DNA from: a candidate division TA06 bacterium SM23_40
Lineage (GTDB): Bacteria > LJUI01 > SM1-40
NCBI GenBank assembly: GCA_001303705.1
Contig: LJUI01000042.1
Location: 1 to 21,813, forward strand
Length of the DNA: 21,813 nucleotides
Reading direction: 5' to 3'
The notes under the pieces are model-generated. The model was given only the letters and a program-made list of their open reading frames with translations. It ran no database searches and was not told where the DNA came from. Positions 1,607-19,213 of the stretch are shown one piece after another (position 1 is the first letter of the stretch; each line of letters begins with the position of its first letter). Both the position numbers and the translations under genes were made by a program.

Positions 1607-3622
1607 GTGAGTAGTCATGGATTCTGGCTGTTCCTCGCGGTGTCCTGGCTCGTGGTCGCCTCTACAAATGGGGCGCTTGCCGAGGAGAAAGCATGGTCGG
1701 ACGAACTGATCGGTGAGGCGCTGCAGGCGGTGCTTCTCACGCAGAGCGATCTTTCCATACGTCGGGACTATGTTCCCGTCGATCCATTCCGCCTGGAGGT
1801 CGTCTCACACCTGCTGGAGCAGCCGTTCGATGCGGGCCCATATGCGCGCACCCTGTCTCAGGGACTGGAAGGGAAGCGCTGGAGCGTAGCCGGTCTCCTG
1901 GCGGGGGCTGCGACCCCGCTGGGCTCGGCGATTGCGGTCAGCCCGCGCGCCGGCCCCGATCTGGAGGCAGGCCTCCGCAAGCTTCTCGATGCTTCGGGGT
2001 CGGAGGTCCCCGACGAGATGATCGAGATGTGGCTCTCGGAGGCCGCCGACCTGCCAGACGAGCTTACCGGGGCGTTAGCGGTCCTCATCGAGGGTGCGGC
2101 CGCCGCTCATCACCACCTGACCCGGGCTTTCCGCCGGCTGGCCGACGAGGAGAAGGAGGAGCTCCTCCGCGGGGCGTGCAGGCTGACGATAGAGGAGGAA
2201 GAGTCGGAGGCCGCCGCCCACGAGCTGGCGAAGCGCGTGCTGGCTCAGGCGGAGAAGGTCGATTTCGACGAGCTGTTCAGGGCCGGGATGGCCCTGGGAG
2301 GGGCGGTCGATGGAGCCCTTGGAGAACTCGCTGTCGCCCCACGGCCAGACAGGGAAGCGGATGGCGGCACGATCTCCCGGTCGGACAAGTCGGGCCGGTC
2401 CGAGAGTCAGGCCGAGTGGCTGCAGCGGCTGGCCGAAGAAACCGGAGAACAGGAGTATGTCCTGCTCTGGGATACCCCCCTCGGAGAGATACGAGTGGGC
2501 GGCGCCGGTCCGGATCGATACGCATCGCCCGGGCTCATCACCATCGATCTCGGGGGCGACGACTACTACATCTGTGATGACGGGGCACTGGTGGACGGAA
2601 ATGCTCCCATCTCCCTGCTGATCGATCTATCCGGAGATGATACCCACCGCTCCGGAGAATTTTCGCTGGGAAGCGGGTACGGTGGCATCGGGATGCTCAT
2701 CGATATTGAGGGAGACGACGTCTATCAGGGAAGCAGCTTCACCCAGGGCGCCGCCCTGCTCGGGGTGGGCGTGTTGTGGGATGGCCAGGGCGAGGACTGC
2801 TACCTCGCCGAGACCCAGGGGCAGGGAGCGGCAACCTTCGGCATCGGACTCCTGACAGATCTGGAGGGGGATGACCTGTATAAGGCCGAGTTCTTCTCCC
2901 AGGGCTTCGGCGGTGTGGCCGCCCTCGGGGCGATCGTCGAAGGCGGCGGGAACGATACGTATGTCGTTGGCCACAAGTACCCCGACCACCGCGAGCCGGA
3001 CTACTATGCCTGCCTGTCCCAGGGGTTCGGGTACGGGTGGCGCGACATCAGCTCCGGGGGCGTTGGCGTCATCGCCGACGTCGCCGGCAACGATACTTAT
3101 ATCGCGGACTACTTTGCTCAGGGTTCGAGTTACTGGTTCGCGCTCGGCATACTCGTCGACGAGGGGGGGAACGACAAGTACGTCGCTCGTCGCTACTCGC
3201 AGGGAGCGGGGATCCACCTGGCGGTCGGCGTGCTGAGCGACCGCGAGGGCAACGATGACTACCTCTCCTGGGGAGTGTCACAGGGCTGTGGCCACGACCT
3301 CGCGCTCGGACTTCTCGTCGATGATGAGGGGAACGATAGCTACCTGGCTAACTGGCTTTCCCAGGGAGCGGGGAATGCCAATGGATTCGGGATCCTCGCC
3401 GACGGGGGCGGAGACGACATCTACCTGACTCGTCCCGGGCGCGGTCAGGGGCAGGGGAACTTCGACCGGGGGTACGAGAGTGTGGGGGTGCTGGTAGACC
3501 GCGAAGGCCATGATGTGTACTCCGGTGCGGGTGCTGATGGCGCGATGTGGCGAGAGGGGATGTACGGCATCGGGCTCGATCGTGAGCCGGAACCCGACTC
3601 CTTACAGGAAGGCCAGGAGTGA
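1607..3622 (+). CDS. Secreted protein with about twelve 27-residue G-x-L-x-D-x-x-G-[DN]-D-x-Y repeats
   Basis: The 671-residue product begins with a signal peptide (about residues 1-25, hydrophobic core ending ALA-EE), so it is exported. Residues 27-290 are an acidic, alanine-rich, probably helical region. From about 309 to 655 there are about twelve repeats with period near 27, each running G-x-G-x-L-x-D-x-x-G-[DN]-D-x-Y and most followed by an [SA]QG turn. The conserved Asp/Asn and Gly resemble calcium-binding beta-roll proteins but do not match the RTX nonapeptide. A stacked beta-solenoid is likely. The GTG start is preceded by GAGGAGAGAGG at 6 nt. I recognise the style of repeat from uncultured bacterial genomes but know no function; surface structure or adhesion are guesses. 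No catalytic motif or C-terminal anchor is evident. Confidence 0.85.
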   Translation: MSSHGFWLFLAVSWLVVASTNGALAEEKAWSDELIGEALQAVLLTQSDLSIRRDYVPVDPFRLEVVSHLLEQPFDAGPYARTLSQGLEGKRWSVAGLLAGAATPLGSAIAVSPRAGPDLEAGLRKLLDASGSEVPDEMIEMWLSEAADLPDELTGALAVLIEGAAAAHHHLTRAFRRLADEEKEELLRGACRLTIEEEESEAAAHELAKRVLAQAEKVDFDELFRAGMALGGAVDGALGELAVAPRPDREADGGTISRSDKSGRSESQAEWLQRLAEETGEQEYVLLWDTPLGEIRVGGAGPDRYASPGLITIDLGGDDYYICDDGALVDGNAPISLLIDLSGDDTHRSGEFSLGSGYGGIGMLIDIEGDDVYQGSSFTQGAALLGVGVLWDGQGEDCYLAETQGQGAATFGIGLLTDLEGDDLYKAEFFSQGFGGVAALGAIVEGGGNDTYVVGHKYPDHREPDYYACLSQGFGYGWRDISSGGVGVIADVAGNDTYIADYFAQGSSYWFALGILVDEGGNDKYVARRYSQGAGIHLAVGVLSDREGNDDYLSWGVSQGCGHDLALGLLVDDEGNDSYLANWLSQGAGNANGFGILADGGGDDIYLTRPGRGQGQGNFDRGYESVGVLVDREGHDVYSGAGADGAMWREGMYGIGLDREPEPDSLQEGQE

Positions 3623-14406: not shown

Positions 14407-14480
14407 GGAGAGTCTTCCCTCTCTACGGTTCATCGAGTCCCTGTTATCGTGGCTTGGTCGCCGCTGTCGAGCCCGTTGTG

Positions 14481-14618
14481 GCCCGATGACAGTGCGGTGT
14501 AGGGCCCAATGAGACTGCGGTGCAGGGCGCGATGAGAGTGCGGTGCAGGGCCCGGTGACGGTACGGTGCAGGGCCCGATGAGAGTGCGGTGCCGGGCCCG
14601 ATGACAGTACGGTCGAGG
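14481..14618. repeat. 23-bp tandem repeat, six units
   Basis: Units begin at 14481, 14504, 14527, 14550, 14573 and 14596, each exactly 23 bp, starting GCCCGATGA and ending near GTGCGGTGCAGG, with two or three substitutions per unit. There are no spacers, so it is not CRISPR, and 23 is not a multiple of three. The array lies between the mutase stop and the alcohol dehydrogenase start, in what would be the latter's upstream region. Apart from it, 14407-14704 holds nothing recognisable. Confidence 0.92.
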
Positions 14619-14704
14619 AGCCTCGATGAACCAGCCGGAGGGTCCGGGGGCAGGGAAAGGGATTCCTCGCGTCACGTTCCCGATGCCCGGGAACGACGTG
14701 CGAG

Positions 14705-16342
14705 CTACTCCGGGCCGGGGCCCGCCGACACCGGGGTCCCGTCGCCGTACACGAACGTGCGGTATGTCTTTTCGATCCGGTCCCAGTTCTCTTCGCGGTC
14801 GAGCGCCCAGAACCTCCCGATTACCGATACCACCATCCCCGTTCCGATTCGCTGGGCCTCGCGCTCAACCTTCTCGATGTACCGGGCCCCGCTCTCAGGA
14901 CGTTCCCCGCGGCGGCCCAGCATCGCATGGATGTATACCTCATCAGGGCCGTTCCGTTTGGCCAAGTCGAGGAGGGCCAGCAGATGATCGACTGAACCGT
15001 GTGAGCTGAAGAAGGAGACGATTCCGAGCAGGTGGAGGGGCCTGCCACCCCGCTTCGCCTCGTCCATCGCCCAGAGAAAGGCCTCGTTCCGGAAGAACGA
15101 GCCATCCTCGATTGCTCTGTCGACCCGGACACGATCTGAATAGATCCGCCTGCCCGCGCCGATGTGCATGTGGCCGGCCTCAGAATTCCCGACCGTTCCA
15201 TCGGGCAGGCCGACGGCCACCCCCGCTGCCTGGAGTGTTGTGGCCGGGTAGGTGGACGTGAGCCCATCCATGACCGGCGTGTCAGCCTGCGCGATGAGAT
15301 CTCCCTTCGATCCGTCGCCCACGCCCCATCCGTCGAGGATGACGAGCAGGATGCGCCGCCTCGTATCGGGTGGTCGATTGACCGACCCCACAAGGAGCAT
15401 GCGTCCTGTCATTACGTCGGGTTTCGCGAGGCCGAGGAGTTCGAGAATCGTAGGTGCAATGTCAGTAAGCTCCCCGTCCGTCCGGCACCTCACCTCGCCT
15501 CCACCAGGGATCGCGGGATCTATGCAGATGAACGGGACCGGGCTTGTCGTGTGGCCGGTGTCGACAGCACCTTCCGGATAGAGCCACCTCTCGACCGTGC
15601 CGTGATCTGACGTGACGATGGTCGTCACGCCGGTCGCCAGGGCCGCCTCGACCACTACCCCGAGCTGGCTGTCGACGGTCTCGACCGCTTCCTTGATCGC
15701 AGCAGTATTCTCGATGTGTCCGACGACATCCACGTTGGCGAAGTTAGCGATGATGACGTCGTAGGCGGGATCGGCGAGTTTCTCCACGACAGCCGCCCGC
15801 ACGTCAGCCGCGCTCATCTCCGGCTTCTCGTCATAGGTGCCGACGTCCCTGGGTGACGGGATGATGATGCGCTCCTCTCCCGGCACTGGATCCTGGCACC
15901 TGCCATTGAGGAAATAGCTGACGTGGATCGCCTTCTCCGACTCACAGATTTTGATCTGGCGGAGGCCATTAGCTGCCAGCACGTCGCTCATAGTCTTCTC
16001 GATCTCTCCCACAGGCGGAAAGGCGACGCGTACCGCCAGCTTCGGATCGTATCCGATCATCGTCACGAATCTCAGTCCCAGATCGGGCTCAACAGGGAAG
16101 AGATCAAAACGGGGCTCCGTCAGACTCTGCGTCAGTTCGACCTCGCGTTCGCCGCGGAGATCGTAGAAGATGACGGAATCTCCATGTCCGATCCGCCCCA
16201 CCGGGGTCCTGTGTCGGTCGACGAGGACGATGGGCTCCAGGGCCTCGTCCTCCTCGCCGGCGCGGTACGCCCGGCGCACGGCGTCGGCCATCGGCGTGGG
16301 ACGGCCTCTGGTATCTCCTTCTTGGTCGGGTTGGTTCTCCAT
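14705..16342 (-). CDS. gpmI: Circularly permuted cofactor-independent phosphoglycerate mutase
   Basis: The enzyme interconverts 3- and 2-phosphoglycerate through a phosphoserine and two metal ions. The 545 residues contain the whole family but in swapped order. Residues 18-315 match the normal second half (AVRRAYRAGEEDE, then Arg63/Arg66, Lys137, NFANVDVVGH with Asp205/His209, TSDHG with Asp246/His247, and His264). A linker of about 14 residues (316-330) leads into the normal N-terminus: ILDGWGVGDG with Asp337, GNSEAGH with nucleophile Ser387, His448, Arg478, Arg510 and Arg516, ending at VYGDG. Spacings within each half equal those of the Bacillus enzyme as I recall them. One change is seen: the usual LDGRDTPP is LGRRGERPE, losing an Asp. 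ATG 16342 has GGAG at 6 nt and lies after the 16431-16459 promoter; ATG 16369 is the alternative. Confidence 0.93.
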   Translation of the reverse strand: MENQPDQEGDTRGRPTPMADAVRRAYRAGEEDEALEPIVLVDRHRTPVGRIGHGDSVIFYDLRGEREVELTQSLTEPRFDLFPVEPDLGLRFVTMIGYDPKLAVRVAFPPVGEIEKTMSDVLAANGLRQIKICESEKAIHVSYFLNGRCQDPVPGEERIIIPSPRDVGTYDEKPEMSAADVRAAVVEKLADPAYDVIIANFANVDVVGHIENTAAIKEAVETVDSQLGVVVEAALATGVTTIVTSDHGTVERWLYPEGAVDTGHTTSPVPFICIDPAIPGGGEVRCRTDGELTDIAPTILELLGLAKPDVMTGRMLLVGSVNRPPDTRRRILLVILDGWGVGDGSKGDLIAQADTPVMDGLTSTYPATTLQAAGVAVGLPDGTVGNSEAGHMHIGAGRRIYSDRVRVDRAIEDGSFFRNEAFLWAMDEAKRGGRPLHLLGIVSFFSSHGSVDHLLALLDLAKRNGPDEVYIHAMLGRRGERPESGARYIEKVEREAQRIGTGMVVSVIGRFWALDREENWDRIEKTYRTFVYGDGTPVSAGPGPE

Positions 16343-16665: not shown

Positions 16666-17659
16666 ATGAAAAACAACGAATTACTCAGGCGCAGCTTGGA
16701 TGTTCTACAGAGGCTCATTAGCACTGTTCCTTCGATCTCCGCGATCGCTGAGCCGAAGCTCAGGCCATCCGGGAGAGCGGGGCCGGATATGATTTGGGAC
16801 ATGGTGGCGGGCGGGAAGCCTGTCACAATCCTGGCGCAAATAGTCCCGCTAGGACAGCCGAGATACCTGCGGAGTGCCGCTGAGCTGATGCGTCGCTGGG
16901 TGAAGGGGGCCCATCCGAAGGCGGCGTACGGGCTTGTGGTTGCGCGTTTCATCAGTGATGAGGGCGCTAGTATCCTGACAGATGCGGGCATAGGGTATGT
17001 AGATCTAGCTGGGAACTGTCTCATTTCGGTGAACAATGTCTATGTCGAACGGCGGACAGGTCCAAACCCGTTGCCGAGCACTCGCCAAATCAAAAGCCTC
17101 TTCTTTCCTAAGGCGAGTCGCATTTTGCGTGTGCTGCTCTGTAATCCGACCCGGATGTGGCGTGTCACAGAACTCGCCGAGGAGGCCAGGGTGAGTCTCG
17201 GGCAGACGTATAATGTGAAGAGGAAGCTGATCGATTATGAGCTGTTGACGCTAGATCAGTCACGCAGGTTGAAGCTGGCCAATCCCTCCGCACTTCTCGA
17301 TCGCTGGCGCGAGAACTACACGTTTCGCAACAATGTTATTGCGGATTTCTACTCCATGGAGCGCCCCGAACAGATTGAGGAGTCAGTCCGGAAGTGGCTT
17401 GATCGCCAACACTTGAGATATGCTTTCACCCTATTCTCAGGAGCAAGGAGAGTGGCTCCATTCGTTAGGCAGGCGCGCGTCGCTCTGTATGTCGATACTG
17501 ATGTGTTTGAGGTTGCAGCGGCTTGCGGGTTCAGCCGTCCAGCGTCCTCACGGAGCCTCAGTCGTCAGCGATATACAACTATACCTGGATCTGTATAGCT
17601 ACAGAGGACGAGGAGCAGAACAGGCCGAGTTTCTGAGATACCAGCGCATCGGTTTCTAG
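16666..17659 (+). pseudogene. AbiEi-like antitoxin / transcriptional regulator, frameshifted near the C-terminus
   Basis: The first 290 codons read as an AbiEi-type antitoxin: a region with GIGYVDLAGNCLISV (about 109-123), a winged-helix segment WRVTELAEEARVSLGQTYNVKRKLIDYELL, and the C-terminal LRYAFTLFSGARRVAPFV. After VDTDVFEVAAACGF (near 17532) the frame runs into unrelated residues and stops at 17598. The expected family ending, VVSDIQLYLDLYSYRGRGAEQAEFLRY, is instead in the +1 frame from about 17552 to a TAG at 17657-17659, ten bases before the toxin ATG. The total of 994 nt is not divisible by three, and the joint looks some 15-20 residues short, so a small deletion with frameshift is likely. 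The start ATG 16666 has GGTGA 7 nt upstream. A sequencing error cannot be excluded. Confidence 0.65.
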
Positions 17660-18520: not shown

Positions 18521-19213
18521 GACGTTATCCACATGCTGAAAGGCTCCTGATAGCATAGAGCAGCTGTGGTTCACAATGTGAGGCTGGCGTTCCTGGAGGG
18601 GATGGGTGCCGATCCTTGGTCTTCTGACGTGGCCTGGAACAGACTCCAACGAGAATTTCACAATTCTACTCAGCAGATCTCAGATTCACCTCAGAGGCAG
18701 CAGTTACTTGGTGTGAGGAACACGGGAATGCAGAGAGATTTGCTGAGGTGGTGGCTCCCTTTCTATGGCGAAGATTCGGCTGTCGAGGATTATCTCCCGG
18801 CGCGGGGAAGATGCCCGAAGGCGAAGCGTCAGTGATTCCTTCAACGGTGAGCGTGGAGCATCCTGGAGCCGTGTCTCACCGTTCTCAATGGTGGACGTCT
18901 CTTTTGACCTTGACATGCAGGTTCTGAGGTGCGAAAGTGCAAGAACATTTGAACGCCGGCCCCCGCGTGTGACCCGCATGTGAGGGGCGTGTGACCCGTA
19001 CGTGACGGGCGTGTGACCTAGACGTGACCCGCGTGTGATCCGTTCGTGACGGGCGTGTGATTCGCACATGACCAGCGCGTGCCGCGCATCTGACCCGCGT
19101 GTGGCCTGCACGTGAGAGGAGCGTGGCCTTTCGAAACGAGTTCTGACTGGAGCAATCCAGGGAGATGGACCGGCTGCGGCCGGCTGGCACATACGTGAAA
19201 TGGAGGATGAGAT
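18521..19213. other. Gene-free 0.7-kb region before hutH
   Basis: Open frames here (for example 18566-18835 plus, and three overlapping minus frames through the repeat) show no family resemblance. They are best explained by lack of stop codons in the repeat. Contents: a 9-bp inverted repeat AACGGTGAG/CTCACCGTT (18843-18851 and 18875-18883, no T-tract), tandem -35-like boxes TTGACC and TTGACA (18904-18915) without a good -10, and the 11/22-bp array at 18967-19128. Confidence 0.6.
18967..19128. repeat. 11-bp (22-bp dimer) tandem repeat array
   Basis: Seven 22-bp units run from 18967 to 19120, followed by a partial unit. Each unit is two related 11-mers, GTGTGACCCGC-like and ACGTGACGGGC-like. 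The core CGTGAC or TGTGAC recurs nearly every 11 bp, about one helical turn. The array ends 85 bp before the hutH start codon. The minus strand is open in all three frames through it. Confidence 0.9.

Follow-up and report, generated by a model that had tools for sequence, protein, structure and literature searches.

In the 21,813-nucleotide stretch of contig LJUI01000042.1 of the candidate division TA06 bacterium SM23_40 analysed here (the window), one gene encodes a protein that resembles cofactor-independent phosphoglycerate mutase (iPGM, or GpmI) with its two halves in swapped order. Is this a genuine circular permutation, and is the protein still a phosphoglycerate mutase (PGM)? The coding sequence lies at 14705–16342 on the minus strand, running from 16342 to 14705; it begins with an ATG at 16342, preceded by GGAG, and specifies 545 amino acids and a stop codon. 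A preliminary description had reported a single open frame over this interval, which stands, and had given no strand; the frame is open on the minus strand only, the plus-strand frame being broken by stops.

The protein starts with a short extension (residues 1–17; 16292–16342, minus strand), which varies among relatives and whose first residues are modelled with low confidence. The first half (residues 18–320; 15383–16291, minus strand) corresponds to the C-terminal half of canonical iPGM, approximately 218–510 in the structure 1EJJ of the B. stearothermophilus enzyme; it contains the rest of the transferase domain followed by the phosphatase metal ligands D205, H209, D246, H247 and H264. A linker (residues approximately 321–327; 15362–15382, minus strand) bridges the former C- and N-termini, and is followed by the second half (residues 328–536; 14735–15361, minus strand), which corresponds to 1EJJ 3–211, the N-terminal half of canonical iPGM, and carries D337 and the nucleophile Ser387.

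The swap is seen in the sequence comparisons, as the preliminary description had proposed for this frame. In phmmer, residues 20–318 match 1EJJ 218–510 (208 bits) and residues 328–536, which come after them, match 1EJJ 3–211 (195 bits); the Pfam matches are PF01676 and PF06415; and the NCBIfam model TIGR01307 scores 483 bits, against a cut-off of 331, summed over two swapped stretches. The linear order of GpmI (TIGR01307), with the nucleophile half first and the metal half last, is thus broken in the window gene, and it is broken in its whole clade. The new termini, previously placed at about 191–261, can be narrowed to between 1EJJ 211 and 218, and the residues that had been picked out as functional (R63, R66, K137, D205, H209, D246, H247, H264, D337, S387, H448, R478, R510 and R516) were all found at the positions given for them.

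A first scan of species-representative genomes found 66 other loci with the halves in permuted order, in the same frame and with no internal stop, and because so many loci share the order, its arising by chance is excluded. The same scan found 11 loci with the canonical order, at much lower identity. Over all the loci and genomes searched, nearly full-length matches of at least 53% identity are permuted, and canonical matches reach at most 46%. In the relatives, the chain is always opened at the equivalent of 1EJJ approximately 211–218, and the linker between the halves is 2–15 residues long, with one exception of 56 residues (locus L046, 6894–7063).

A whole-genome search found the permuted gene in 65 of the 149 genomes (59 full-length) sampled as the order of the Syntrophaceae genome G010 (Syntrophales), where one copy sits on a contig of more than 2 Mb. 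It is present in 6 of 99 genomes from the phylum of an Aminicenantes genome, 2 of 251 from the phylum of a Chloroflexi genome, and 2 of 58 drawn from other phyla. Occurrence outside Syntrophales, in Aminicenantota, Chloroflexota, Zixibacteria and others, is therefore patchy, and this spread across many phyla suggests lateral transfer. The window genome is the sole representative of its phylum in the comparison, with no near relatives to set beside it. One permuted gene (L060, 6001–7539) is on a contig labelled as an Undinarchaeales archaeon; it nests with Anaerolineae, nearest to L029, and the contig is probably mis-binned.

A draft assembly of 189 contigs, from a phylum represented by one genome, could in principle have joined two gpmI copies wrongly or contain a decaying pseudogene. 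We regard the probability of either as negligible. Misassembly, the objection that the preliminary description had itself raised, is ruled out by the same order and the same cut loop in dozens of independent genomes, including the contig of more than 2 Mb, and the window genome has no canonical copy. A pseudogene is ruled out by these relatives together with dN/dS values of 0.13–0.23 between close pairs of permuted genes, which indicate purifying selection. Both halves are intact, there is one point at which the new termini were made, a linker joins the old termini, and a single fold is predicted, all of which characterize a circular permutant. We are therefore in practically no doubt that the circular permutation is real.

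Trees were calculated from sequences rearranged into the canonical order (63 permuted and 37 canonical). In the unrooted concatenated tree all permuted sequences lie on one side of a branch of length 0.7 with SH-aLRT support of 100, and unrooted trees of the N half and the C half separately give the same single permuted group, again with SH-aLRT of 100. The recovery of one group in the joint and the separate trees argues for one permutation event, rather than repeated events or a fusion of unrelated halves, and on these sequence comparisons the family almost certainly has a single origin. A fusion of halves from different sources is ruled out, as each half yields the same group. In a single ancestral event, the old termini would have been joined through a short linker and the new termini opened in the transferase-domain loop at approximately 212–217; tandem duplication followed by fusion and trimming is a plausible route. 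Neither a tandem-duplication intermediate nor a relative that has the motifs described below in the unpermuted order was found among the loci and genomes searched.

The structure of the full-length protein was predicted using AlphaFold2, with an alignment that included 34 permuted homologues. The model has a pLDDT of 88.2 and a pTM of 0.85 over the whole chain. When the second half was modelled alone, pLDDT fell to 63.4 and pTM to 0.55, the two alignments differing somewhat (24 rows against 34), and confidence was low in the first 80 or so residues, the part of the phosphatase domain that contains the nucleophile. The second half thus seems to need the first half in order to fold, which agrees with both halves contributing to a single phosphatase domain, and the difference in pTM supports, at the level of prediction, the earlier proposal of one fold uniting both halves. 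Sequential structure aligners matched model residues 16–320 to 1EJJ 214–510 and to related entries; a match to the first half only is what such aligners are expected to return for a permutant, and it says nothing about a joint active site.

In 1EJJ the phosphatase domain comprises residues 1–76 and 311–510 and the transferase domain residues 77–310. Mapped onto these limits, the permutation would make the phosphatase domain continuous (approximately residues 112–401) and split the transferase domain between the chain ends, whereas in canonical iPGM the transferase domain is continuous and the phosphatase domain is split. Both crossings between the domains would be kept, and so domain closure should still work.

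The catalytic core is retained. Counted over the permuted sequences that have a residue at the position concerned, the metal ligands D403, H407, D444, H445 and H462 (1EJJ numbering) are present throughout, as are D12, S62, H123, R153, R185, R191, R261, R264 and K336. Phosphotransfer by the metal centre and serine has thus very probably been retained, to judge from the residues conserved. The set includes the GpmI substrate residues His123, Arg153, Arg185, Arg191, Arg261, Arg264 and Lys336, all invariant in the permuted family.

The two loops around these substrate residues have changed. The first carries the motif SFFSSHGS (residues 443–450; 14993–15016, minus strand) in place of SDGGVHSH, its H448 being the canonical His123, and the second carries LGRRGERPESG (residues 475–485; 14888–14920, minus strand) in place of LDGRD(T/V)PP. 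Within the latter, R478 is equivalent to Arg153, Gly479 replaces Asp154, and R477 and E480 are new and invariant. Across the family, SDGGVHS has become SxxSSHG and DGRD has become GRRGE. All 99 permuted sequences (a few of them from duplicate genomes) carry the substitutions D151G, G152R and D154G, while none of the 37 canonical sequences departs from D151, G152 and Asp154; the same 99 all have Glu at position 155 and the substitutions N68H, G121S, V122S and S124G. Asp154 is a substrate-binding residue of iPGM, with a possible role in acid–base chemistry, from work on 1EJJ. The earlier statement that all catalytic elements are present therefore holds for the metal ligands, the serine and the arginine and lysine residues; it fails for Asp154, here Gly479, whose flanking motif has been rebuilt.

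One reading of a preserved phosphatase half beside an altered acceptor-binding loop is that the protein is a phosphatase and not a mutase: reorientation of the acceptor would have been lost, the serine phosphoenzyme would be hydrolysed, and the enzyme would act as a phosphomonoesterase on small anions. The fold of this half is akin to those of phosphopentomutase and the alkaline phosphatases. We consider this improbable, because Lys336 and the set of transferase-domain arginines, which hold the acceptor in iPGM, are invariant, and a simple phosphatase would have no need of them.

A different alternative is that the family consists of true phosphoglycerate mutases with a permuted topology, which carry out the GpmI reaction as isoenzymes beside the archaeal-type PGM (aPGM), with Glu480 or another group in place of Asp154. 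All the metal ligands, Ser62 and the Arg/Lys/His set are conserved, and the TIGR01307 equivalog cut-off is passed; that pass, however, is the sum of two stretches and is blind to domain order, and Asp154 is invariably lost, with remodelling of both the motifs that canonical enzymes keep. The remaining evidence concerns which other PGMs the genomes contain.

The window genome (2.88 Mb, 89.8% complete) contains a full, separate aPGM (L082; NF003160, 599 bits), and no second bacterial-type iPGM and no GpmA were found in it. The preliminary description had proposed looking for a conventional gpmI or gpmA elsewhere in the genome; neither is there. Among 40 further genomes in which the permuted gene occurs, aPGM is above cut-off in 36, canonical iPGM in 4 and GpmA in 5, so that 37 of the 40 have another PGM above a cut-off. 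Just one of the 40 (G034) shows no trace of any other PGM. Three more genomes (G046, G102 and G113) have the permuted gene with no aPGM or canonical iPGM detected, and most of these four genomes are draft assemblies. In the order of G010, aPGM is matched at E ≤ 1e-60 in 135 of 149 genomes; the permuted gene is present in 65, canonical iPGM in 48 and both in 19, an overlap expected by chance (Fisher p 0.60), so there is no sign that the permuted enzyme has displaced the canonical one within this order. It is ruled out that the permuted gene is the sole PGM of its genome, both here and in nearly all the others. Since aPGM is common and the overlap with canonical iPGM is that of chance, the permuted gene is not a substitute for a missing PGM.

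The four genomes in which no other PGM was detected fit a true phosphoglycerate mutase, and the presence of a second PGM in almost all the rest argues against one; taking these together with the motifs, we see a permuted isoenzyme as possible, though not likely. The earlier suggestion of a permuted and probably active enzyme thus survives as regards the permutation, and is weakened as regards PGM activity by the loss of Asp154, the rebuilding of two substrate-site loops and the presence of a separate PGM.

We therefore prefer a third reading, in which the window protein is probably an iPGM-derived phosphotransferase or mutase with remodelled specificity, and not a permuted glycolytic enzyme. 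Ser387 at the two-metal centre would take phosphate from the substrate, and the phosphate would then be handed to a hydroxyl group on a small, anionic acceptor positioned between the two domains. Because the loop that holds the acceptor has been rebuilt (Asp154 lost, Arg477 and Glu480 added, and SxxSSHG introduced), the substrate would not be phosphoglycerate, or not only phosphoglycerate; judged by these motifs, it is likely to be a different compound. Against this, most of the residues in contact with phosphoglycerate (His123, Arg153, 185, 191, 261, 264 and Lys336) have been conserved, so that phosphoglycerate could still bind, and Glu480, itself invariant, might compensate for the lost Asp154. 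The outcome would be a neofunctionalised phosphotransferase or mutase that operates beside an ordinary PGM. For the family as a whole, we lean towards a history in which a permuted group now carrying the GpmI name arose once, spread over many bacterial phyla and, through the rebuilding of its acceptor loop, came to catalyse a new phosphotransfer on a small molecule.

Comparison with known enzymes sets the family apart. It shares with GpmI/iPGM (1EJJ, 1O98 and S. aureus 4NWJ) approximately 40% identity, the fold, two metal sites, the Ser nucleophile and the Arg/Lys cluster, but its halves are swapped, Asp154, DGRD and SDGGVHS are replaced in every member, and it usually coexists with another PGM. 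The aPGM proteins (TIGR00306, NF003160), of which L082 is a separate gene in the window genome, belong to the same superfamily and use the same metal and serine chemistry; their similarity is marginal (29.5 bits over 91 profile positions), and they are approximately 400 residues long and in canonical order. Phosphopentomutase and other members of the alkaline phosphatase superfamily resemble the window protein in the metal centre and in the phosphatase-domain fold (Z approximately 12 over 175 residues), whereas their transferase or cap domain differs; to our knowledge, none is permuted in this way. PhpG (NF038358), an iPGM-like transferase with 3-phosphoglycerate as acceptor according to its NCBIfam description, provides a precedent for a different transfer reaction, although its match to the window protein is marginal (18.8 bits, cut-off 545).

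Across phyla, the gene neighbours indicate no joint pathway, and no operon common to several phyla was found as a clue to substrate. In the window, a zinc alcohol dehydrogenase gene lies 3′ of the permuted gene on the same strand. Directly 3′ of the permuted gene, 50 of 102 permuted loci have a gene for a macro-domain protein (PF01661), often overlapping or within 30 nt; this neighbour is confined to Syntrophales-type loci (such as L017, L022, L024, L038 and L067), with none in other phyla, and may reflect vertical synteny or be a clue to the substrate. In some Chloroflexota, a gene of the histidine phosphatase superfamily (PF00300, tested for L004) adjoins the permuted gene (L004 7602–8228, L006 7554–8180 and L053 5145–5789).

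On the 5′ side of the window gene is a divergent pair, both on the plus strand. The product of 17669–18520 matches AbiEii (PF08843, the nucleotidyltransferase of type IV toxin–antitoxin systems), and that of 16666–17598, matched by neither Pfam nor NCBIfam, may be the partner of the AbiEii-like protein. The window also contains a tandem array just 3′ of the permuted gene (14480–14629, 6.4 copies of a 23-bp unit), two others (866–1094, 3.4 copies of a 67-bp unit; 18965–19115, 6.9 copies of a 22-bp unit), and a gene at 1607–3622 on the plus strand for a 671-residue protein that consists of glycine/aspartate-rich repeats and matches nothing in Pfam.

The preliminary description knew of no permuted member of this family, and we likewise found no description of a permuted PGM in the open-access PMC literature searched, within which limit “undescribed” is provisional; the word “permut” is absent from a survey of bacterial PGMs published in 2010 (PMC2964296). 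As far as we could find, natural circular permutation has not been described among the relatives of PGM, an enzyme central to glycolysis, and here it is fixed throughout a clade and coupled with an invariant change to the substrate site. Annotation pipelines sum the two swapped TIGR01307 stretches and give the GpmI name, with the order going unnoticed. As the equivalog threshold is passed in this way, many genomes may carry an uncharacterized enzyme under a glycolytic name, and the automatic GpmI label is possibly wrong. The permuted family is compact and easily expressed and has sharp signature motifs, so that direct tests are possible both of the reaction that it catalyses and of how permutation affects a two-domain hinge enzyme.
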